A DNA stretch of 64,000 nt from Deferribacter autotrophicus (GTDB lineage: Bacteria > Chrysiogenota > Deferribacteres > Deferribacterales > Deferribacteraceae): contig NZ_VFJB01000003.1 of assembly GCF_008362905.1 (NCBI RefSeq), forward strand, positions 131,501-195,500, in the 5' to 3' direction. Position numbers and translations under genes: made by a program. Position 1 is the stretch's first letter, and every line of letters starts with the position of its first letter. Below the pieces are notes generated by a model. The model searched no databases. It was not told where the DNA came from and worked only from the letters and a program-made list of their open reading frames with translations. Shown in pieces: positions 44,447 through 57,494 of this stretch.

Positions 44447-45538
44447 ATGGGCAAACTTGATAATATCTTGAAAGAGTACGGGGTTAGCAGAAGGGAATTT
44501 CTAAAATATTGCACAGCTCTCTCAGGTACACTTGCGCTGTCTCCAGCTTTTGCACCTAAAATTGCAGAGGCTATAGAGGATGATAACAGACCCCCGGTTA
44601 TCTGGCTTGAATTTCAGGATTGTGCAGGTGATTCTGAATCACTCTTGAGGGCAAACAGACCTACTGTGGCTGAGTTAGTTCTTGACTATTTATCCATTGA
44701 CTATCATGAGACAATAATGGCTGCAGCAGGTCATCAAGCTGAAGCTGCTAGAGATGAAACCGTTAAAAAGTATAAAAACAAATATATTTGTGTTGTTGAA
44801 GGCTCTATTCCGACAGCAGATGACGGTATTTATTGCTGTATTGGCGGTAGATCAGCAGTTGACATATTAAAAGAAGTTGGTGGTAATGCTGCTTTTGTAA
44901 TAGCAGTGGGTACATGTGCTGCTTATGGTGGCTTACCTGCAGCTTATCCAAATCCTACAGGGGCAAAGTCGGTAAAAGAGATCTTGGGTAATAAAACGGT
45001 GATTAATTTACCAGGTTGTCCAATGAATGTGGATAATTTGACAGCTACGGTGGTTCATTATCTTCTTTTTGGAGCACCACCTGCCCTTGATAAGTTTCTT
45101 AGACCAAAATTTGCTTATGGTAAAAGAATTCATGATAATTGCGAAAGAAGAGCCCATTTCGATGCCGGACAGTTTGTGGAAAAGTGGGGAGATGAAGGAC
45201 ATAGACAAGGATGGTGTTTATATAAAATGGGTTGTAAAGGTCCTGAAACATTTCATAATTGCCCGACAGTTCGTTGGAATGAGGGTTTAAGCTGGCCGGT
45301 TATGGCAGGGCATGGTTGCGTAGGATGTAGTGAGCCTGGATTTTGGGACACTATGACTCCAATTTATAGAAGGTTACCAAATATTCCTGGTTTTGGAGTA
45401 GAGGCAACTGCTACGAAAATAGGAACAACTATTGTGGGTATCTCTGCTGTTGTTTTTGGTGTTCACGGTATCGTTACTGCAATTAGAAACCGTGGACTTG
45501 TAAGAAAAGTTGAAAACGAATTTGAAGATAATGAATAA
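44447..45538 (+). CDS. hyaA: [NiFe] hydrogenase small subunit, membrane-anchored, Asp at proximal cluster
   Basis: This is the electron-transfer subunit of a periplasmic uptake hydrogenase, 363 residues. It has a Tat signal RREFLKY (about residue 15) ending near AEAIED, and a C-terminal membrane helix (IGTTIVGISAVVFGVHGIV, about 328-346). The proximal-cluster motif is QDC59-AGD62-SES; the family normally has CxxC, so the second Cys is Asp (codon GAT). The other ligands are present: GTCAAYGG, LPGCPMN, HDNCERRAHFD, CLYKMGCKGP, NCPTVRW and HGCVGCSEP. GGGAGG precedes the ATG. It opens a four-gene hydrogenase cluster. Confidence 0.93.
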   Translation: MGKLDNILKEYGVSRREFLKYCTALSGTLALSPAFAPKIAEAIEDDNRPPVIWLEFQDCAGDSESLLRANRPTVAELVLDYLSIDYHETIMAAAGHQAEAARDETVKKYKNKYICVVEGSIPTADDGIYCCIGGRSAVDILKEVGGNAAFVIAVGTCAAYGGLPAAYPNPTGAKSVKEILGNKTVINLPGCPMNVDNLTATVVHYLLFGAPPALDKFLRPKFAYGKRIHDNCERRAHFDAGQFVEKWGDEGHRQGWCLYKMGCKGPETFHNCPTVRWNEGLSWPVMAGHGCVGCSEPGFWDTMTPIYRRLPNIPGFGVEATATKIGTTIVGISAVVFGVHGIVTAIRNRGLVRKVENEFEDNE

Positions 45539-45560: not shown

Positions 45561-47273
45561 ATGGCAGATAGAATAGTAGTTGACCCAATTACAAGAATTG
45601 AGGGTCATTTAAGAATAGAGGCAAAAGTTGAGAATGGTAAGATTGTGGATGCTTGGTCAAGTTCTACAATGTTTAGAGGTGTAGAAAAAATTTTGCAAGG
45701 AAGAGATCCTAGAGATGCGTGGTATTTTACACAGAGATTTTGCGGTGTGTGTACTACTGTTCATTCTATTGCTTCGATAAGAGCTGTAGAAAATGCCCTT
45801 GGGATCAAAGTTCCTTTTAATGCTGAAATGATCAGAAACATTATAATTGGTATTCAAAATGTACAAGATCATGTAATACATTTTTATCACCTTCATGCTC
45901 TTGACTGGGTGGATATTGTTTCAGCATTAAAAGCTGATCCTAAAAAAACTGCACAGTTGCAACAGTCAATTTCAGACTGGAAATATTCTAGTGAAGATTA
46001 TTTCAGAAGTGTTCAGAACAAGATAGCAGCGTTTGTAAAAACCGGCAGGCTGGGTCCATTTGGTAATGCTTATTGGGGGCATCCTGCGTATAAACTTCCT
46101 CCTGAGGCAAATCTTATGGCGGTGGCTCACTATTTAGAGGCACTTCATCTTCAAAAAGAGATTATTAAAATACATGCAATTTTAGGGTCAAAAAACCCAC
46201 ATCCTCAAACATTTCTGGTAGGTGGTATGTCTATTCCTGTGGATCCTAATAGCCAAAATGCATTAAATGCTGATAGAATTGCTCAGATAAAAGAGTTTGT
46301 AAACTTGGCTAAGGAATTTGTAGAGCAGGTTTATATCCCTGATTTACTTGCAGTAGCTAGTTTTTATCCAGAATGGACAAAAATTGGAGCTGGTCATAAA
46401 AACTTTTTATCTTATGGAGAGTATCCTGAAGATCAAACAGGTTATCCAAATGGATTATGGATTCCAGCAGGAATAGTTTTAAATGGTGATATAACCAAAG
46501 TGTTCGATGTGGATCAAAATAAGATAACAGAGTATGTGACTCATTCATGGTATGAGTATAAAGCTGGAGATGATAGAGGGAAACACCCTTTTGATGGTGA
46601 AACGAACTGGAAGTATACCGGTCCAAAACCACCTTATGAATATCTCGATGTGGATACTAAATATTCTTGGGTTAAGGCACCCAGATATGATGATAAACCT
46701 ATGGAGGTAGGGCCTCTTGCTAGAATGGTTATCGGATATGCAAAAGGGCATAAGGAAATTAAAGAAGCAGTGGACTGGGCATTAAAACAGCTAAATGCTG
46801 ATGCTAGCATTCTTTTCTCAACACTTGGTAGAACTGCAGCAAGAGGTATTGAAACATTAATTACTGTAAAGAGGCTAAACAAATGGATTGATATGCTTGT
46901 GGCAAATATAAAAACTGGTGACCTAACTGTTCATAATAGTGAAAAATGGGATCCAGAGACATGGCCAAAATCAGCAAAAGGCTATGGATGGCATGAGGCA
47001 CCGAGAGGAGCTCTTGGACACTGGATCATTATAGAAAATAAAGAAATTAAAAATTACCAAGCTGTAGTTCCGTCTACTTGGAATGCTGGTCCTAGGGATG
47101 CTAAAGGTCAAAGAGGTCCATATGAGGAATCATTGATTGGTACTCCAGTTGCTGACCCTGAGAAGCCTCTGGAGATTTTGAGAACAATACACTCTTTTGA
47201 CCCATGTCTTGCATGTGCTGTTCATGTTTATGATGAAAAAGGTAAGTTGCGTGCAAAAGTTAAAGTGCTTTAG
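45561..47273 (+). CDS. hyaB: [NiFe] hydrogenase large subunit
   Basis: This is the catalytic subunit that splits H2 at the Ni-Fe(CN)2CO centre, 570 residues. The nickel ligands are RFC61-GVC64-TTVHS near the N-terminus and DPC549-LAC552-AVH at the C-terminus. A 15-residue tail after His555 (VYDEKGKLRAKVKVL) is the part removed by the maturation protease after nickel insertion. It is exported as a complex with the Tat-tagged small subunit. No Sec replaces Cys, so this is not a NiFeSe enzyme. It lies 22 bases after the small subunit. Confidence 0.96.
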   Translation: MADRIVVDPITRIEGHLRIEAKVENGKIVDAWSSSTMFRGVEKILQGRDPRDAWYFTQRFCGVCTTVHSIASIRAVENALGIKVPFNAEMIRNIIIGIQNVQDHVIHFYHLHALDWVDIVSALKADPKKTAQLQQSISDWKYSSEDYFRSVQNKIAAFVKTGRLGPFGNAYWGHPAYKLPPEANLMAVAHYLEALHLQKEIIKIHAILGSKNPHPQTFLVGGMSIPVDPNSQNALNADRIAQIKEFVNLAKEFVEQVYIPDLLAVASFYPEWTKIGAGHKNFLSYGEYPEDQTGYPNGLWIPAGIVLNGDITKVFDVDQNKITEYVTHSWYEYKAGDDRGKHPFDGETNWKYTGPKPPYEYLDVDTKYSWVKAPRYDDKPMEVGPLARMVIGYAKGHKEIKEAVDWALKQLNADASILFSTLGRTAARGIETLITVKRLNKWIDMLVANIKTGDLTVHNSEKWDPETWPKSAKGYGWHEAPRGALGHWIIIENKEIKNYQAVVPSTWNAGPRDAKGQRGPYEESLIGTPVADPEKPLEILRTIHSFDPCLACAVHVYDEKGKLRAKVKVL

Positions 47274-47282
47274 GAGGGCAGC

Positions 47283-47966
47283 ATGAAAAACAATGATAAT
47301 ATAAAGTGTGCTGCCAAACGTTATATTTATGTTTGGGAGGCACCTGTAAGAATAAGTCATTGGCTGAATTTTTTGTGTATAATAACTTTGTCGATAACTG
47401 GATATTACATTCATAACCCATTCATCCATGCTAGTGATATTATCGAAACAACGTATATCATGGGTATGATGAGGTATTTGCATTACTTAGTAGGTGTAAT
47501 TTTTGCTTTTAGTGTAATGCTAAGGTTATTTTGGTTGTTTGTGGGTAATAGGTATGCAAGTTGGCACTCCTTTTCGAACCCATTTAGAAAAGAAGATCGA
47601 AAGACCTTTTTTGCATACATAAAATACTATACATTTTTAGAGAAGAATCCTCCACATACATTAGGTCACAACCCTGTGGCTCTTGTTGCTTATATTGTGC
47701 TGTTTAATCTGTTTATATTGCAAATAATTACAGGGTTTGCTTTGTGGGCACAGGCTGACCCTAACTCCACACTTTATGCTCTTACCTCATGGGTTTTCAG
47801 TATTGCTAGCAATCAATGGGTGAGATTTTTTCATTATCTTATGATGTTTTTGATTGCAGGCTTTGTTATAAATCATCTTTACTCTGCCATTTTATTTGAT
47901 TTTAAAACACAATCAGGAGAGATTAGTTCAATTTTTTCTGGATGGAAGCCTGAGAGGAATAGTTAA
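47283..47966 (+). CDS. hyaC: Hydrogenase b-type cytochrome subunit
   Basis: This is the membrane di-heme cytochrome b that passes electrons from the small subunit to the quinone pool. It is 227 residues with four hydrophobic segments. Heme-ligand His candidates occur in RISHWLNF, RYLHYLVGV, FFHYLMMFLIAG and INHLYSAI. This matches the HyaC/HupC family. It starts 9 bases after the large subunit and is followed by a terminator before the protease gene. Confidence 0.92.
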   Translation: MKNNDNIKCAAKRYIYVWEAPVRISHWLNFLCIITLSITGYYIHNPFIHASDIIETTYIMGMMRYLHYLVGVIFAFSVMLRLFWLFVGNRYASWHSFSNPFRKEDRKTFFAYIKYYTFLEKNPPHTLGHNPVALVAYIVLFNLFILQIITGFALWAQADPNSTLYALTSWVFSIASNQWVRFFHYLMMFLIAGFVINHLYSAILFDFKTQSGEISSIFSGWKPERNS

Positions 47967-48020: not shown

Positions 48021-48036
48021 ATTTGTAGGAGTGGAA

Positions 48037-48510
48037 ATGAGAATTTTAGTTTTAGGACTGGGTAACCTTTTAATGAATGATGATGCTGCGGGATTAAAGG
48101 CAGTATATCGATTAAAAAAAATTTATGAAGGTAAATTTCAGGATAAACTAAAAATTATGGATGGAGGTACACTAGGGCTTGATTTATTACCTTATATTGA
48201 AGAAGCTACTCATCTGATAATTGTTGATGCAGTGGATCTTGATTTATCTCCTGGAACAGTTATAAAAATTGAAGGTGATGATATTGATTCTGTTTTTGAA
48301 AACAAACTTTCTCCTCATCAAATGGGATTGAAAGATATTCTGTTTGCAGCAGATATTATTGGGGTTAAACCTGAGTATGTGGTGATGTATGGGATTCAAA
48401 TAGGAAATGTAAATATGGAAAACCAACTATCGCTAGAAGTTATGAAAAGCCTTGATCATTTAGTAAAAAATGTGCAGTTAGAAATAGAAAAGTTATTAAA
48501 ATTGTTATGA
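48037..48510 (+). CDS. hyaD: Hydrogenase maturation protease
   Basis: This endopeptidase trims the large-subunit C-terminus after nickel insertion. It is 157 residues from MRILVLGLGNLLMNDD. The nickel-sensing acidic residues are in NDDAAG (Asp near residue 16), VDAVDLDL (near 65) and the His in SPHQMGLKD (near 90), as in HycI/HybD proteins. GGAG is 7 bases upstream of this ATG, better than the GTG two codons earlier. The end overlaps the convergent GGDEF gene by 6 bases. Confidence 0.92.
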   Translation: MRILVLGLGNLLMNDDAAGLKAVYRLKKIYEGKFQDKLKIMDGGTLGLDLLPYIEEATHLIIVDAVDLDLSPGTVIKIEGDDIDSVFENKLSPHQMGLKDILFAADIIGVKPEYVVMYGIQIGNVNMENQLSLEVMKSLDHLVKNVQLEIEKLLKLL

Positions 48511-49398
48511 TGCAATTATAGTTTTGTTTTTTCCACTTTTCTTTGCGTTATATAGCGCTTTATCAGCAGCTTCTAATGCATCATTAAGATTTTCGTATTT
48601 TTTTACAGAAGAGACACCTAAACTTACTGTGATTTTTAATTCTAAGTTGCCTATATGGAAGGAGTTGTTTTCTATGTTTTTTCTTATACGTTCAGCTATT
48701 TTATAAGATTCGTTTATGTTCAGATAAGGTAAAATAACTAAAAACTCTTCACCACCGTATCTCCCCACAAAGTCTGTTTTGCGTAATGTTTGTGAAATAA
48801 TTCTAGATATGTCTTTTAGAACTTCATCTCCTACCAAATGGCCATAAGTATCGTTAATTTTTTTGAAGTTATCGATATCAATAATAATAAGGCCTATTTC
48901 AACTTCTGGTTGTCGATAAAGATTGTTCAATTCATTTATGATACTTCTTCTATTCAATATTCCAGTTAGAAAGTCATGAATTGTTTCGTTATAGAGCTTT
49001 TCGTATGCTTCTTTTAGTTTGTTTTCAAGTTTTATAATTCTTTCAGCACTAAAAAGCCTAACTTTTAATTCTTTAAAAGAGAAAGGTTTTACAATATAAT
49101 CATCAGCGCCTTTGTGGAGGGCTTCTAAAGTATCGTCTTTGTCGGACTTTCCCGTTACAATTATGACATATACATAATGATTTAGGTTAAGTTCTCTTAT
49201 TTTTTGGCATAGATCGACACCGTTTAGTCCTGGCATTATCCAATCTATTAAAGCAATAGAAATATTATTATTTTTTATTAATTCGAAAGCGTCTAAGCCG
49301 TTTGAAGCTTCATAAACTTTATAATTTAATTTAGATAAAAAAGCACTTAATACTTCCCTAGCATCTTTGTCGTCATCGGCTACTAATACTTTGTACAT
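48505..49398 (-). CDS. Response regulator with GGDEF diguanylate cyclase output
   Basis: This makes cyclic di-GMP on receiver phosphorylation, as PleD/WspR-like proteins do. It is 297 residues. The receiver has D52 in IALIDWIMPG and the Lys in YIVKPFS. The GGDEF domain from about residue 135 has G215-GEEF and the inhibitory I-site RKTD (R206-D209) exactly five residues before it, so product feedback is expected. No sensor kinase is adjacent. It converges on and overlaps hyaD. Confidence 0.9.
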   Translation of the reverse strand: MYKVLVADDDKDAREVLSAFLSKLNYKVYEASNGLDAFELIKNNNISIALIDWIMPGLNGVDLCQKIRELNLNHYVYVIIVTGKSDKDDTLEALHKGADDYIVKPFSFKELKVRLFSAERIIKLENKLKEAYEKLYNETIHDFLTGILNRRSIINELNNLYRQPEVEIGLIIIDIDNFKKINDTYGHLVGDEVLKDISRIISQTLRKTDFVGRYGGEEFLVILPYLNINESYKIAERIRKNIENNSFHIGNLELKITVSLGVSSVKKYENLNDALEAADKALYNAKKSGKNKTIIAS

Positions 49399-49857: not shown

Positions 49858-49873
49858 TGGCATGTGTTTTGCT
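49858..49873 (+). promoter_or_regulatory. Sigma-54 promoter of the 10-heme cytochrome operon
   Basis: TGGCATGTGTTTTGCT fits the sigma-54 consensus TGGCAYRNNNNTTGCW at every defined position, with GG and GC in the -24 and -12 places. Expected transcription start is about 49884, only about 3 bases before the ATG at 49887. Confidence 0.75.
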
Positions 49874-49886
49874 TAAAATTTGCATT

Positions 49887-50879
49887 ATGAAAAAGCTTAT
49901 AATGATTTATTTGATTTTTTTTAGTACAGTTTGTTTTGGTTTTGAGAAAGATATTACTGATAATAGGTTATCAATCAATAATTGTGTAAGTTGCCATAGT
50001 GATACAATTATATCTAATTTTTGTGATAAAAATGTCAAATGTGTCAATTGTCACAGTGGTAAAATCAAAAAATTAGGTTTTTTAGGTGTAGATTATATTA
50101 ATAGTTTTATCTTGGAAAAAAAAGATCCGCATAACTCGAAATATTTATGTTTAGTATGTCATGAAGATAGAGGTTCAGAAAATTCAATAAATTTAAAATT
50201 TGATGGGAATGATGTGGCTTTATGTGAGCAATGTCATAATGAAGCCACTGTAGGGATTGAGGCTCATAGCGTTAATTTTACATATAAACCTAGTGATGAA
50301 GTGAAGATACCAGATAATTTTCCTCTAAAAGATGGTAAAGTTACATGCATGACCTGCCATGTCTTTGATTGTCTAGAAGGTAATCATAGTGAAAAATATT
50401 TAAGAGGGGAATATATAAGAAGAGAAAAGTTTTGCTATAACTGTCATAATGCAACTCATTTTAAGAAATATAATCCGCATAAACAAGTGGATGAAAATGG
50501 AAACTTGATAGTGGAGTCATGTGTTATTTGCCATAAGAAACAACCTGATATTTCAAAAGATAGAGGTATAGAAACTGTAGTGTTGAAGGGGGATATTAAT
50601 GAGTTATGTAACGGATGTCATCAAATAAAAGGGGTTCATCCTACAGGAATAAATCATTTAAGAGTGCCAAATGAGGATATAAAGAAAAGAATTAAACGTT
50701 TTTTAAGAAAAGAAAAAATTTATGTTCCATTTGGTGAAAATTTTAAAATATTGTGTGTTACGTGTCACCTTCCTCATCAGTATGAGATGTTAAAAAATCA
50801 AGCAACAGGAAAATATGCTAAGAGGACAAGATTTAGTTCAGGATATGAGCTTTGTATAATGTGTCATTTAAAAGATTAA
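49887..50879 (+). CDS. Decaheme c-type cytochrome, exported
   Basis: About 330 residues with a signal peptide (MKKLIMIYLIFFSTVCFG) and ten CXXCH heme motifs, the first CVSCH and the last CIMCH six residues from the end. Between them are frequent extra His residues suited to bis-His ligation. There is no membrane anchor after the signal, so it should be periplasmic or exported further. The open frame begins at a TTG (49869), but that codon lies inside the sigma-54 -12 element. The ATG at 49887 is therefore the earliest usable start, giving an almost leaderless message; M6 at 49902 is possible. It is the first gene of the cytochrome run. Confidence 0.88.
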   Translation: MKKLIMIYLIFFSTVCFGFEKDITDNRLSINNCVSCHSDTIISNFCDKNVKCVNCHSGKIKKLGFLGVDYINSFILEKKDPHNSKYLCLVCHEDRGSENSINLKFDGNDVALCEQCHNEATVGIEAHSVNFTYKPSDEVKIPDNFPLKDGKVTCMTCHVFDCLEGNHSEKYLRGEYIRREKFCYNCHNATHFKKYNPHKQVDENGNLIVESCVICHKKQPDISKDRGIETVVLKGDINELCNGCHQIKGVHPTGINHLRVPNEDIKKRIKRFLRKEKIYVPFGENFKILCVTCHLPHQYEMLKNQATGKYAKRTRFSSGYELCIMCHLKD

Positions 50880-50907
50880 TATTTTAAAACAATAAAAGGA
50901 GGGATGG

Positions 50908-51933
50908 ATGAAAAGTTTTTTTGTATTATTTTTTATCTTACTTTTTAATAGTTTTCTTTATGCAGTAGATGATGAGAATTGCTTATTATGTCACAAATAC
51001 CGTACTCTTTCTCGCATTGATGAGAACGGTAAGACAAGACTTTACTATGTTAATGATGAGTTGTTTCATAAGTCAGTTCATGGAAAAATCAAATGTAAAG
51101 AATGTCACTCTCAGATAACTAAAATACCACATGAGGAAAATACCAAAGTAAACTGTTTAAATGAATGTCACATAGTGGAGCCATCTTCCGAAAAAAGATT
51201 TTCACATAAAAAGGTACAAGAAGTTTTAATGAACAGTATACATAATCCAAAAAACAAATATGTGAATTACAGAGATGAGAGAGATTTTCCTGATTGTATT
51301 GATTGTCATAATAACCCTTTATTTAGACCAATACAAATTTTTAAAGATGTTACAGAGGAAGGATTGAGTGAAAAAGCACTAGCAAGGTGTCGTTTATGTC
51401 ATAAAGAGGAAAAGTTTGTAAAATATTTTTATAATCATGTTAGTCATAGACTGCATAACAGTAAAAACAGTGCTGAAATAGTTAGAATGTGTAACAAATG
51501 TCATGGTAAAGAGGAAATGGCTACTAAACATAAATTGGTGAATGCGGTAGCAACCTATTCTGACACTTTTCATGGTAAGGCTGTAACTTTTGGATATGAT
51601 AGCGCTCCAGATTGTATTGATTGTCACGTAAAAGAAAATGAGTCAGCACATGCAATTAGGAGTTATGAAGATCCAAAAAGTGCAGTATATGAAAAAAACA
51701 GATGGAAAACTTGTGCAAAAAAGATGTGTCATCCCGATGCAACACCTGGATTAGGAGAAGTGAGGATGCATGTTGTAATAAACAAAGACTTATATAAACC
51801 TGAATATTATACAGCTTTAGGATTTACATGTCTGACACTTGGGGCTTATTTACCTCTTGCTTTGATATTAGTTTTGGAGCTCATTAGAGAAATATTTCCT
51901 AATTTAAGTTTTAGAAGAAAGAGGAGGAAATAA
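50908..51933 (+). CDS. Octaheme c-type cytochrome with C-terminal membrane anchor
   Basis: It is 341 residues with a signal peptide, six standard CXXCH motifs and two non-standard ones: CLNECH (CX3CH, near residue 91) and CAKKMCH (CX4CH, near residue 274). A single C-terminal helix (about 303-327, FTCLTLGAYLPLALILVLEL) and a basic tail RRKRRK anchor it in the inner membrane with hemes outside. It overlaps the cytochrome b gene by one base. Together with the two next genes this resembles the cytochrome b/c quinol-oxidising complexes of Geobacter (Cbc type); that comparison is from memory. Confidence 0.88.
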   Translation: MKSFFVLFFILLFNSFLYAVDDENCLLCHKYRTLSRIDENGKTRLYYVNDELFHKSVHGKIKCKECHSQITKIPHEENTKVNCLNECHIVEPSSEKRFSHKKVQEVLMNSIHNPKNKYVNYRDERDFPDCIDCHNNPLFRPIQIFKDVTEEGLSEKALARCRLCHKEEKFVKYFYNHVSHRLHNSKNSAEIVRMCNKCHGKEEMATKHKLVNAVATYSDTFHGKAVTFGYDSAPDCIDCHVKENESAHAIRSYEDPKSAVYEKNRWKTCAKKMCHPDATPGLGEVRMHVVINKDLYKPEYYTALGFTCLTLGAYLPLALILVLELIREIFPNLSFRRKRRK

Positions 51934-52826
51934 TGATGAAAAAATATCCATTAATTAAAATAGTGAGGGGTAAAAAATATTACTTAAAATTGACTCCTGC
52001 GCAAAGATATCAACATTTTATTTTAATGACTACATTCATATTTTTAATACTTACGGGATTCCCATTAAAATTTCACTATTATCCATGGGCCAAAGTGATG
52101 ATTAATATGTTTGGAGGATTACAAGTTACTACAGTTATTCATAGAATTTGTGGTGTTACAATGGTTGGTTTGTTCTTTTTTCACTGGTATTATCTGTTTA
52201 GAAATCTGTATGTTTATTATATTAGACCAAGTATTAGGAGTAACTCTTTCTCTTTTAGAGGATTGTTTAAATTTATTTATCATTCACCAATGTTTCCAAG
52301 AGGTAAAGATCTGAAGGATGTGGTTGATTTTCTAAAATATGCCTTTTTTATTACTGATGAGAAACCAAAGCATGAAAGGTTTCATTGGAGGGAAAAATTT
52401 GATTATTGGGCAGTTTTTTGGGGGATTCCATTACTAGGATTAACAGGTTTAATTTTATGGTTTGAAACTGAAGCCACGAAGATTTTACCAGGTTGGGCAT
52501 TGAATATTAGTTTTATAGCGCATTCAGATGAGGCTCTTTTAGCAGCATCGGTTATTTTAATTTGGCATATGTATAATGCACATGTGAATTATGATAAATT
52601 TCCTATGTCACCTCTGTTCTTAACGGGGTATTTACCTGAAGAAATTATGAAACATGAATATTATTTAGAATGGCAAAGATTAAATGAGTTGGCTGAAAAG
52701 CATCCTGAATTAGTTTTGGATATAGATAGTTATAAAATCAAAAAGGAAAGGGAAATTGAAGAACAATATAAAGCTTATATGGAATATCTCGATGTTGAAA
52801 TAAAAAAAGATACAAGTGAAGCTTAA
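51933..52826 (+). CDS. Membrane cytochrome b subunit of a b/c quinol oxidoreductase
   Basis: It is 297 residues with four main hydrophobic helices and His residues placed for b-heme ligation: RYQHFILM, TVIHRICG, FFFHWYYL, FIAHSDEAL and IWHMYNAHVNYDKFP. This matches the formate dehydrogenase gamma/thiosulfate reductase cytochrome b superfamily (NarI-like). Flanked by membrane-anchored multiheme cytochromes, it probably passes electrons between menaquinone and the periplasmic hemes. A charged helical tail of about 60 residues lies at the C-terminus. GGAGG precedes the ATG; a second ATG follows directly. Confidence 0.85.
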   Translation: MMKKYPLIKIVRGKKYYLKLTPAQRYQHFILMTTFIFLILTGFPLKFHYYPWAKVMINMFGGLQVTTVIHRICGVTMVGLFFFHWYYLFRNLYVYYIRPSIRSNSFSFRGLFKFIYHSPMFPRGKDLKDVVDFLKYAFFITDEKPKHERFHWREKFDYWAVFWGIPLLGLTGLILWFETEATKILPGWALNISFIAHSDEALLAASVILIWHMYNAHVNYDKFPMSPLFLTGYLPEEIMKHEYYLEWQRLNELAEKHPELVLDIDSYKIKKEREIEEQYKAYMEYLDVEIKKDTSEA

Positions 52827-52840
52827 ATTGGGAGGTTTGA

Positions 52841-53665
52841 ATGAGCAGACGAGAATTGAGTTTTTTAAAAAAAATATATGCTGTAATAGGTATAATTTTT
52901 ATTATTTATTCCTCTTATTTGGTTGTAAAGCTTGTTATGCACATATGGCATAAGGAAGGGAAACGTGAAGAGGCAAAGATTGATGAAGGTGATTTATTTA
53001 AGATGATGATGAGTGAAGAGAAAAAAGTTACATATGATCTTGGTTATAAAGTTATTAAAGAAGAGGAGCTAGAAAGACACTTCCATCATGTGGGAGAGGG
53101 TGTTGTTCATGATGAAATAAATTTGTGTATAAGATGTCATGGAGATATTCCCCATGATAAAAATAAATCAATTAGAGCTTTTTTGAATATGCATAGCGAT
53201 TTTCTTGCATGTGAGACTTGTCATATTAGACTCAAAGATTCTAAGAGATTTGTGTGGTATAATAAAGTGAATGGGGATCAGGTTAATAAATTAGCGATTT
53301 CTAAATATCTAAGCAATCCAACAATGAAGCTGATACCTTTAGTAAAAATAGAAGGTAACTATGTAAGACCAGATACAGATGAGCTTAAAGCTTTTGTAGA
53401 GAGGTTTAGAGAAGCCGTGATTCAATTGCCTCCTGCAAAAAAAAGTCAAGGGCTAAAAATAATACATAAGATGGTTGATAAAAGGCCTGTTCAGTGTGAT
53501 GAATGTCATGCCCCTACGTTGGATGACAGTTATTTACCATTATTGGATGTAGGGTATAAAAAGGAAAGAGTTCTTCAGATTTTAAGTAATGAAGTTGTTG
53601 GTATGGTTAATAAATATAAAAAATTTTATATTCCAAAATTCTTAGAGCCGGGAAACAATGAATGA
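52841..53665 (+). CDS. Membrane-anchored triheme c-type cytochrome
   Basis: It is 274 residues. The N-terminal basic stretch and helix (about 10-33) are not followed by an obvious cleavage site, so it is probably a signal anchor. Three CXXCH motifs follow: CIRCH near residue 95, CETCH near 122 and CDECH near 220. His-rich segments such as RHFHHVGEG lie before the first heme and may supply axial ligands. It lies 14 bases after the cytochrome b gene and overlaps the next gene by 4 bases, supporting a common complex. Confidence 0.83.
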   Translation: MSRRELSFLKKIYAVIGIIFIIYSSYLVVKLVMHIWHKEGKREEAKIDEGDLFKMMMSEEKKVTYDLGYKVIKEEELERHFHHVGEGVVHDEINLCIRCHGDIPHDKNKSIRAFLNMHSDFLACETCHIRLKDSKRFVWYNKVNGDQVNKLAISKYLSNPTMKLIPLVKIEGNYVRPDTDELKAFVERFREAVIQLPPAKKSQGLKIIHKMVDKRPVQCDECHAPTLDDSYLPLLDVGYKKERVLQILSNEVVGMVNKYKKFYIPKFLEPGNNE

Positions 53666-54534
53666 AAAAAGTATATATAATTTGTTTTATATTATTTATT
53701 TTTTCAAGTAATTATGCTGCGAACATTTTAAATGTTCGCATTTTTTATTCAATTCAGTTTAAAGATAACGAATTTCCAGCAGATGTGATTTTTATTGATG
53801 GTAATCTGTATATATTGGAGTCCAAATCAGGAAAACTGATAAAAATTGATTTGAAAAAAAAGGAAATTGTAAAGAAATACCACTTAATAGATAGTGAGGG
53901 ATCAATAGGAGTTACTTTTTATAAGGAAAAACTTTTTGTTCCAATCCCTAATAAGAACAAAATTAATGTCTATTCTTTCAAGAATTTGAAAAAGCTAAAA
54001 GAAATTTATGTTACAGACCCAACAGATATTGAGTTTTATAGAGATAAAGGGTTTGTTGTGAGTAATGATAAACACAAATTGATAATTTTAGATGCAAAAA
54101 CATTAAAAAGAATAGGTGATTTTGGTAAAGTGGGGTATTATGAGAGGGAATTTAGATATCCTTTTGACTTGGAAATTGATAAAAATGGAGATTTATATAT
54201 TTCAGAAGTTATCAATACTAGAGTGCAAATATTGGATAACAAATTGAGATTTGTTAATTTTGTGGGTAAATGGGGGGTGAAGAGCGGTACTTTTTACAGA
54301 CCAAAAGGTATAGATATCTATAATAATTATCTAATAGTTGCTGATGGCTATATTGGGGTTATTCAATTTTTTAACAAAAATAATGGTGATATTGTTTATC
54401 TATTAGGAGTTGATGGGAAACTGTATAAGTTTTTGTCTCCTGTTAGGGTTAGAGTTTTTAATGGTTTTTTGGGCGTTGTTGATTATTACCAGAAAAAAGT
54501 TCTAATTTTTAAATTGGGAGATATCTCCAGATGA
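53662..54534 (+). CDS. Exported NHL-repeat beta-propeller protein
   Basis: It is 290 residues with a signal peptide (MKKVYIICFILFIFSSNYAA). The rest is a series of about 40-residue beta-propeller blades with NHL-like patterns, for example YPFDLEIDKNGDLYISEVINTRVQIL and PKGIDIYNNYLIVADGYIGVIQFF. It has no heme motif. NHL propellers are often encoded beside multiheme cytochromes and may act as scaffolds or docking partners; that role is inference. It overlaps both neighbours by 4 bases, so it is translated with them. Confidence 0.82.
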   Translation: MKKVYIICFILFIFSSNYAANILNVRIFYSIQFKDNEFPADVIFIDGNLYILESKSGKLIKIDLKKKEIVKKYHLIDSEGSIGVTFYKEKLFVPIPNKNKINVYSFKNLKKLKEIYVTDPTDIEFYRDKGFVVSNDKHKLIILDAKTLKRIGDFGKVGYYEREFRYPFDLEIDKNGDLYISEVINTRVQILDNKLRFVNFVGKWGVKSGTFYRPKGIDIYNNYLIVADGYIGVIQFFNKNNGDIVYLLGVDGKLYKFLSPVRVRVFNGFLGVVDYYQKKVLIFKLGDISR

Positions 54535-57494
54535 AAGGTTCTATAGCGTTTATTTTCGTATTCTTATTGTACTCTTATCTATTTGCCGCACCAACTGGCC
54601 AGGAACCTGCAAAAGAATGTGCACTTTGTCATTTTAGTTGGATGGAAGTGTTTATGTTTGAACATAAAGATACAGATATTGCTTCTTTTCCTAAAAAAAG
54701 AGTAGTAGCAACTGAAAGGATTTGTTTTTCTTGCCATGATGGTACTGTCGTGGATAGTAGATTAAGAGTGTGGACAGAAGATAAACATAAGGTTGGTATT
54801 ATTCCTTCAAAAGAGGTGTCTGTACCTAAAGAGTTCCCCCTTGAAGATGGAAAAATACAGTGTAAAACATGCCATACTGCACATGGAACAGGTGAGCCGG
54901 AAAAAGAAGGGTATGAGAGAAGCATTTTTCTTAGAATAGATAATAAAAATTCAGAGTTATGTAAAGCTTGTCATATCAATAAAGTTGGTAGAAACAATCA
55001 CCCATCATCTAAGATGAACATGTTGATAAATAATGATTTTTTTTCTGCAGGAGGAGTGCTTGGTGTAGACAATCAGGTTATATGTGAGAGTTGTCATACT
55101 CCACATGGACCAAAGGAAAAAAAACTTTTGCTTGGGAAATATGTTGATTCTGAATTGTGTTCTTATTGTCATACAGATAAGCTGACTCCTGGAAAATTCT
55201 ATAAAAAAGGCTTGTTGAATCATCCTGTAAATATTGAATTTACAGATGATAAAAAAATAGAAAAATTGAAGCTAAAAGGAGCCTACTTTTCAAATAATCG
55301 AGAAATTGTATGTCTTACATGTCATAATACTCATAAAGGTGTCAATAAAAACCTTTTGATAATGAATAATCGTAATGATGAATTGTGCTTAAATTGTCAT
55401 GAGGATAAAAGATATATTTATTATACAAAGCATAATCTAAAAAAAATGAAGAATTTTAAAAATAGATTTGGGAAATCGCCCTTTGAGCATGGAGTTTGTT
55501 CTGTATGTCATGATCCTCATGGTTGGGCCTTAAAATTGCCAGAAACAGATGACGATCTTTTATCAAAAGCTTGCTTTTCATGCCATTTGGATAAAAATAT
55601 TGTAAAAAACAAAGTTATTGATAAGCAAAAATATAATCATCCTGTTTATGTGAAAACTAAATTTGATACATCACTACCTGTTTTTGGAAAAACAGTTGCG
55701 TACTTTAGTGAGTTTTACTTCGATACAAAAAAGAGAGAATATATAACATGTGCTACTTGCCACAATTCACATATTAAAAGTAAAAACTTTTTAAGAGAAG
55801 ATGTGAAAAACAGCAGTTTGTGTCTTGATTGCCATAAGGATAAAAATTCTGTTGTAAACAGTAGTCATGGTAAAAATGATTTGAATTGTTTATCGTGCCA
55901 CAAAGTGCATAATTCGAAAAATAAAAATTTATTGATAGATAAAGTTGATAATATCTGTTTGGATTGTCATAAAAGCGGGGGGGTAGCAGAAAAAAAACTT
56001 GTAGGTAAAAATAGTCACCCTGTAGATATATTGCCAAAAATAAAAATTCCAAAAGATATGAAGTTAGTAAACGGTAAAATAGAGTGTATTACATGTCACG
56101 AACCCCATAAAGCAGGAACTAAAAATAAATTCTTGAGAACGGATCCTAAAAATCTTGATATTTTCTGTTATAAATGCCATGGGGATAAGCAAGAAATAAT
56201 TGATAGTGAGCATGATTTTAGAGACAGTAAACAGAGTGAGCTTTGTAGTAATTGTCATGTTCCTCACAATGCAAAAAACACAAAATTTTTATTCAGTAAG
56301 GAAATAGCTGAAAATAATGCAAATAGTTTTTGTATTATATGTCATGAAAAGAATGGAATAGCCAAAGAAAAAGTTGTTGTTATGATTCATCCTATAGGTG
56401 AGGTAAAAACTAAAAAAGATATTCTAAATGAATTAACATGTATCTCATGCCATGATCCCCATAAAAATGGCAATAGAAGGAAGTCTGAGTCTGTATTTAA
56501 TAACAGTTTCTTAAAGTTTAATGCGAAAAAGTTTTGTATAACTTGTCATAAAGATAAGAGTGGATTTGTGAACTCTCCTCATAATATAAAGAATTTTGAG
56601 AATATAAGAAGAGTAAAAAGTTTAATAAAAGAATCTGATTTTTGTGGATTTTGCCACGGTGTCCATTTTAATAAAAATAAAAACGTGACATCACAAAATG
56701 TCTTGGATATATGTATAGAATGTCATAAGAAAAAAAATGTAGTAGATGAAAAACTTATTACAACAAGCCATCCTTTTGTAAATTTACATAAAGAAAAATA
56801 TAAAGGTATGTTGCTTTTCAATGAAAAAATTCATTGTGCAACATGTCATAATCCGCATTCAGAATATAAAAATATGCTTGTGGAAGGTATTCAAAAATCT
56901 GATAAGTTATGTATTAGATGTCATGATGATAAAAAATATGTTTTCTATTCTGAGCATAATTTAAATAATATTTTTTCAAGAAAACTGAATTTTGTTTGTG
57001 GTGAGTGTCATAAAGCTCATAATTATCCAGAAGGTAACCGCTTATTGTGGCCAAAGGAAAAGAAAGATGATGAAATGATAAAAGAAATATGTTTAAGTTG
57101 TCATAGTGAATCAGGGGTGGCAAAAAAGAAAATTGTGAAATATTTTGGACATCCAAAAATACCTATGACTTTTAAATATAAAAGTAACGATGTTTTACCT
57201 ATTTATAATGAAGAGGGGGAAAAAGATATAAATGGAGCTATAACATGCGCTACATGTCATAATGCTCACAGTTGGAGTGAGAAAGAGGAATATAGATATT
57301 CTTCAAAAAATAGTGAAGGGAATGCACTGACGAGTTTTTTAAAATATCGTAATGTAATTAATCTATGTAATACCTGTCATGGTATTGAAGGCTTGTTGCG
57401 TTACAAATATTATCATACCAATAAGTATAGGAAGATAAAAGAAGAAAAAAAGTTGAGGAAGAGAGGTTTTTTAGATATACTTATAGGGAAGTAG
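54531..57494 (+). CDS. Giant 28-heme c-type cytochrome
   Basis: It is 987 residues with a signal peptide (MKGSIAFIFVFLLYSYLFAA) and 28 CXXCH motifs, about one per 34 residues from CALCH near residue 30 to CNTCH near 954. Many come in the doubled-CXXCH pattern: an ITCHxPH or ATCHNxH type heme followed 20-30 residues later by an LCxxCHxDK type heme. This indicates tandem duplication of a two-heme unit. No membrane helix or lipobox follows the signal. The C-terminus is basic. No domain other than heme repeats is seen. It is the last gene before the second sigma-54 promoter. Its size suits long-range electron transfer in the periplasm or outside the cell. Confidence 0.9.
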   Translation: MKGSIAFIFVFLLYSYLFAAPTGQEPAKECALCHFSWMEVFMFEHKDTDIASFPKKRVVATERICFSCHDGTVVDSRLRVWTEDKHKVGIIPSKEVSVPKEFPLEDGKIQCKTCHTAHGTGEPEKEGYERSIFLRIDNKNSELCKACHINKVGRNNHPSSKMNMLINNDFFSAGGVLGVDNQVICESCHTPHGPKEKKLLLGKYVDSELCSYCHTDKLTPGKFYKKGLLNHPVNIEFTDDKKIEKLKLKGAYFSNNREIVCLTCHNTHKGVNKNLLIMNNRNDELCLNCHEDKRYIYYTKHNLKKMKNFKNRFGKSPFEHGVCSVCHDPHGWALKLPETDDDLLSKACFSCHLDKNIVKNKVIDKQKYNHPVYVKTKFDTSLPVFGKTVAYFSEFYFDTKKREYITCATCHNSHIKSKNFLREDVKNSSLCLDCHKDKNSVVNSSHGKNDLNCLSCHKVHNSKNKNLLIDKVDNICLDCHKSGGVAEKKLVGKNSHPVDILPKIKIPKDMKLVNGKIECITCHEPHKAGTKNKFLRTDPKNLDIFCYKCHGDKQEIIDSEHDFRDSKQSELCSNCHVPHNAKNTKFLFSKEIAENNANSFCIICHEKNGIAKEKVVVMIHPIGEVKTKKDILNELTCISCHDPHKNGNRRKSESVFNNSFLKFNAKKFCITCHKDKSGFVNSPHNIKNFENIRRVKSLIKESDFCGFCHGVHFNKNKNVTSQNVLDICIECHKKKNVVDEKLITTSHPFVNLHKEKYKGMLLFNEKIHCATCHNPHSEYKNMLVEGIQKSDKLCIRCHDDKKYVFYSEHNLNNIFSRKLNFVCGECHKAHNYPEGNRLLWPKEKKDDEMIKEICLSCHSESGVAKKKIVKYFGHPKIPMTFKYKSNDVLPIYNEEGEKDINGAITCATCHNAHSWSEKEEYRYSSKNSEGNALTSFLKYRNVINLCNTCHGIEGLLRYKYYHTNKYRKIKEEKKLRKRGFLDILIGK

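Follow-up and report, generated by a model that had tools for sequence, protein, structure and literature searches.

The 64,000-nucleotide stretch of Deferribacter autotrophicus DNA analysed here (the window) is, taken as a whole, best explained as carrying the operon of a group 1f [NiFe] uptake hydrogenase with an inherited Asp/Asn trait at its proximal iron–sulphur cluster, a reading to which we give a probability of about 0.88. The exchange of a cluster cysteine for aspartate is real, yet it is the already published usual state of group 1f, and it is no special invention of this genome. The assignment of the D. autotrophicus hydrogenase to group 1f is likewise in print, in the genome paper (PMC6896113). 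The position of the aspartate, the operon, the conservation and phylogenetic spread of the residue and the class by phylogeny are established by sequence, the class resting on the tree together with the literature and gene order. The window gene is one further member of a known group 1f clade.

The small subunit, a group 1f-like HyaA/HyoS protein of 363 amino acids, is encoded on the forward strand at 44447–45538 and matches TIGR00391 with 488.6 bits (cut-off 179.5) as well as PF14720 and PF01058. Nucleotides 44618–44638 of the same strand read GATTGTGCAGGTGATTCTGAA and translate into D58-C59-A60-G61-D62-S63-E64, where C59 is the first cysteine of the usual CxxC and the first ligand of the proximal cluster, and Asp62 (codon GAT, 44630–44632) replaces the second cysteine. 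A multiple alignment places Asp62 in the column of the second CxxC cysteine of E. coli HyaA and HybO, Cupriavidus necator HoxK and Alteromonas HynS; this column holds an aspartate in C. necator HofK and in a group 1h-like protein from Kitasatospora. Translation and alignment thus bear out an earlier note on this DNA in its reading of the motif and codon, and in its remark that the aspartate sits where group 1h enzymes carry theirs. The note had said that an alignment with another cysteine in the ligand position would overturn its claim; no cysteine takes the place of Asp62. All other ligand positions are conventional. Cys157 (44915–44917) and Cys191 (45017–45019), the third ligand and the fourth cysteine position of the proximal cluster, are invariant among relatives; the distal cluster has His229, Cys232, Cys257 and Cys263 (45131–45235), and the medial cluster follows the three-Cys pattern with Cys272, Cys291 and Cys294 (45260–45328). 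The protein carries a twin-arginine (Tat) motif, S-R-R-E-F-L-K (44486–44506, TIGR01409 TAT_signal_seq above cut-off), and a C-terminal hydrophobic helix (45425–45481), which lines up with the C-terminal part of HyaA and of HoxK and resembles the membrane anchor of Hyd-1 and HoxK.

As explanations of Asp62, sequencing error, an isolated mutation and a loss offset by another cysteine have practically no probability left, and nothing was found in their favour. The closest genome in the set belongs to the same genus, and its small subunit, 94% identical, carries Asp, as does every other distinct Deferribacterota orthologue read; a sequencing error can therefore be dismissed, and the conservation, which extends to many other relatives, rules out chance as well. 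Compensation fares no better: comparison with the aligned relatives gave no compensating Cys column for Asp62 in the window protein, whose non-ligand cysteines are either common in Cys-keeping relatives too or missing from most Asp members. At the column of Gly145 (44879–44881), Cys is present in more than half of the relatives with Asp or Asn and in no relative that keeps the ordinary Cys. For the window protein, which is without it, we rejected this cysteine as a compensating residue; the comparisons that are independent number only two.

The small subunit is followed on the same strand by the 570-residue large subunit (45561–47273; PF00374, 809.6 bits), with RFCGVC and DPCLACAVH motifs, by a HyaC-type cytochrome b as membrane electron acceptor (47283–47966; TIGR02125, 158.8 bits, cut-off 121.5) and by a maturation protease of the HyaD/HupD type (48031–48510; TIGR00072, 126.9 bits, cut-off 47.45; PF01750). 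The matches to TIGR01409 and TIGR02125 and the C-terminal helix agree with the earlier description of a Tat-exported, membrane-anchored enzyme with a cytochrome b partner. The arrangement also corresponds to that published for D. autotrophicus, in which HyoS, HyoL, HyoE and a protease, classified as group 1f by HydDB, lie beside a multihaem cytochrome cluster, while a second hydrogenase cluster is of the group 1c HybOABC type (Slobodkin et al. 2019, PMC6896113). That paper gives the HyoSLE subunits 84–93% identity with their D. desulfuricans counterparts, and its description shows no difference from the window in gene order, protease, adjacent multihaem cytochromes or second HybO-type hydrogenase; its passages on this operon make no remark on the Asp.

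Among the Deferribacterota, 25 of 51 genomes contain an orthologue of the small subunit (at least 64% identity), and Asp occupies the position in every distinct one read. Close relatives are found in 111 of the 141 Geobacter-order genomes, where the loci fetched, some 65 in number, have Asp in most cases and Asn in some. Taken from all sources, the distinct relatives above 52.5% identity (n = 155) comprise 99 sequences with Asp, 40 with Asn and 16 with Cys, counts that reflect the choice of fetched loci and are not population frequencies. A maximum-likelihood tree was built from 91 small subunits, Roseiflexus not being represented among its rows, with the ligand column removed beforehand. It places the window protein in an all-Asp clade of 11 rows from Deferribacterota and Desulfuromonadota (support 100/99), the nearest relatives beyond its own phylum being Desulfuromonadales. 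The enclosing clade of 64 rows (support 97/96; 34 Asp, 19 Asn and 11 Cys) takes in Geobacter (Geobacter sp. Bin_37_8) and Parafrankia, while HofK (group 1h), HoxK and HyaA (1d) and HybO (1c) all fall outside it. Within these 64 rows at least seven changes are needed between Asp and Asn against two between Cys and Asp/Asn, so that Asp and Asn look interchangeable while Cys is rarely swapped in or out. The numbers are partly a matter of mutation, since Asp to Asn takes one base change and either residue to Cys takes two.

The supported clade with Geobacter and Parafrankia and the presence of Asp at the second proximal cysteine position both place the protein in group 1f. Substitution of the proximal cysteine by Asn or Asp has been described for the group 1f enzymes of Roseiflexus, Geobacter and Frankia (Mohammadi et al. 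2017, PMC5364354), and before that a Cys to Asp change at proximal position 2 in Geobacter and a Cys to Asn change in Nostoc (Yonemoto et al. 2014, PMC4070099), where the engineered Alteromonas counterparts C81D/N were functional. The Geobacterales and Frankia rows are about 57–68% identical to the window protein and share the loss of this cysteine, although some group 1f members have Asn. The rarity that the earlier note had implied for the exchange is not upheld, Asp or Asn being the usual state of group 1f and published as such in 2014 and 2017. The note had also held that its point would fall if Asp were the ordinary state of a well-studied group; tree and literature show that this largely applies, Asp or Asn being ordinary in group 1f, although group 1f is little studied biochemically, and the D. 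autotrophicus paper calls it polyphyletic and poorly studied (PMC6896113). A non-Cys proximal ligand is accordingly not limited to group 1h; it is the norm across a large class of exported uptake hydrogenases that has received little study.

Membership in the other candidate groups was rejected. The actinobacterial-type, group 1h HofK of C. necator (5AA5) has Asp in the same column, within CDGD as compared with CAGD in the window, and so shares the proximal Asp of CxGD. However, it is only about 30% identical, lacks both a Tat signal and a C-terminal anchor, and lies far outside the clade of the window protein, which has both. The suspicion voiced in the earlier note that the class differs from group 1h was thus justified; its comparison with that group holds for the position of the residue and fails for the family. 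The oxygen-tolerant, six-Cys enzymes of group 1d, E. coli Hyd-1 and C. necator HoxK, share with the window the Tat signal, the C-terminal anchor and the cytochrome b partner, but they have Cys at the Asp62 position and two extra cysteines, whereas the alignment shows Gly at both supernumerary positions of the window protein; a search of the genome (2.54 Mb, 10 contigs) gave no match to a HyaE homologue. Group 1c (Hyd-2), with HybO-like small subunits, a CTGC motif and HybA/HybB partners, does not fit an enzyme with a cytochrome b partner, and the HybO-like small subunit of this genome, with an ordinary CTGC, is a separate protein encoded on contig 6 (169401–170279).

Most likely, then, the group 1f enzyme is a periplasmic, membrane-anchored uptake hydrogenase that delivers electrons to quinone through a predicted 3Cys-1Asp proximal cluster and the cytochrome b. 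The Tat system would export it in folded form, and it would be held in the membrane by its anchor; H2 would be oxidised in the periplasm, and the electrons would pass from the proximal to the medial and distal Fe–S clusters, to haem b and on to menaquinone. In the proximal cluster three cysteines would be joined by Asp62 as the fourth, most likely oxygen, ligand, as in group 1h, where Asp is reported to coordinate a [4Fe–4S] proximal cluster in several papers (including PMC5364354). Asp or Asn probably tunes this cluster and may suit micro-oxic or aerotolerant use. We infer the ligation of iron by Asp, the cluster potential, the electron path and the behaviour towards oxygen; the putative 3Cys-1Asp ligation and oxygen insensitivity are both extrapolated from group 1h. 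A literature search with the exact term '3Cys1Asp' found nothing.

A non-Cys residue at the fourth position need not imply a ligated [4Fe–4S] cluster, since Huc, a group 2a enzyme, has three [3Fe–4S] clusters, the proximal one included, and group 2a carries Asn at the position of Asp62 (PMC5364354). It is conceivable along these lines that Asp62 holds no fourth iron and that the proximal cluster is, or readily becomes, a [3Fe–4S] cluster of raised potential as in Huc. The excess of Asp/Asn interchanges over changes to or from Cys in the 64-row clade suggests that being 'not Cys' outweighs being a strong ligand, and Asp-ligated clusters can have labile iron, with [3Fe–4S] clusters arising from such substitutions (PMC4070099). 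We nevertheless consider this unlikely, because the group 1h Asp is described as a ligand of a [4Fe–4S] cluster and the counts of changes are in part mutational. A literature search for the group 2a Asn together with [3Fe–4S] found nothing. Broader still, and in our opinion distinctly doubtful, is the idea that the trait conserved throughout group 1f is 'no Cys' at the fourth proximal position, not 'Asp', and that the cluster is labile or a high-potential [3Fe–4S]. If true, Tat-exported hydrogenases would have a second route to an unusual proximal cluster, distinct from the six-Cys [4Fe–3S].

The exchange might also belong to a hydrogenase for oxygen defence, as proposed for Hya of Geobacter sulfurreducens, with H2 driving the removal of O2 or peroxide. 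Two papers refer to a part played by the G. sulfurreducens Hya in defence against oxidative stress and bring up such a role for the present hydrogenase (PMC6896113, PMC13186404), and the genome encodes both a cytochrome bd and a haem-copper oxidase, the latter resembling CcoN by eye. This explanation is possible, though we think it rather improbable, as the same large clade also holds Cys-bearing relatives and we see no evident link between Asp and aerobic life: Asp is found in Deferribacterota and Desulfuromonadota, both largely anaerobic, and Asn in many rows from Chloroflexi and Acidobacteriota. Group 1f has been linked to the uptake of sub-atmospheric H2 in Acidobacterium. With Asp, Asn and Cys versions side by side, the 64-row clade would lend itself naturally to a comparison of the effect of the ligand on oxygen tolerance and catalytic bias.

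The surroundings of the operon, in the window and in relatives, offer some further observations. The hydrogenase genes adjoin a cluster at 49869–57494 that combines multihaem c-type cytochromes with a membrane protein of the cytochrome b type. One of its products has 987 residues and numerous CxxCH motifs, and the cluster corresponds to the published D. autotrophicus cytochrome cluster. Between the operon and this cluster, on the reverse strand at 48505–49398, lies a gene which by the appearance of its sequence encodes a response regulator with a GGDEF (diguanylate cyclase) domain. The electron acceptor may differ in some relatives: two loci (L011 and L013) gave no cytochrome b match, and at a third (L012, 5980–9338) small subunit, large subunit and protease genes follow one another with no cytochrome b gene between them. 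At the locus of a Cys-bearing relative from the Anaerolineae (L048, 5977–10252), also without a cytochrome b there, the small subunit is followed by a large subunit, a protease and a ferredoxin-like Tat protein that is HybA-like by appearance.
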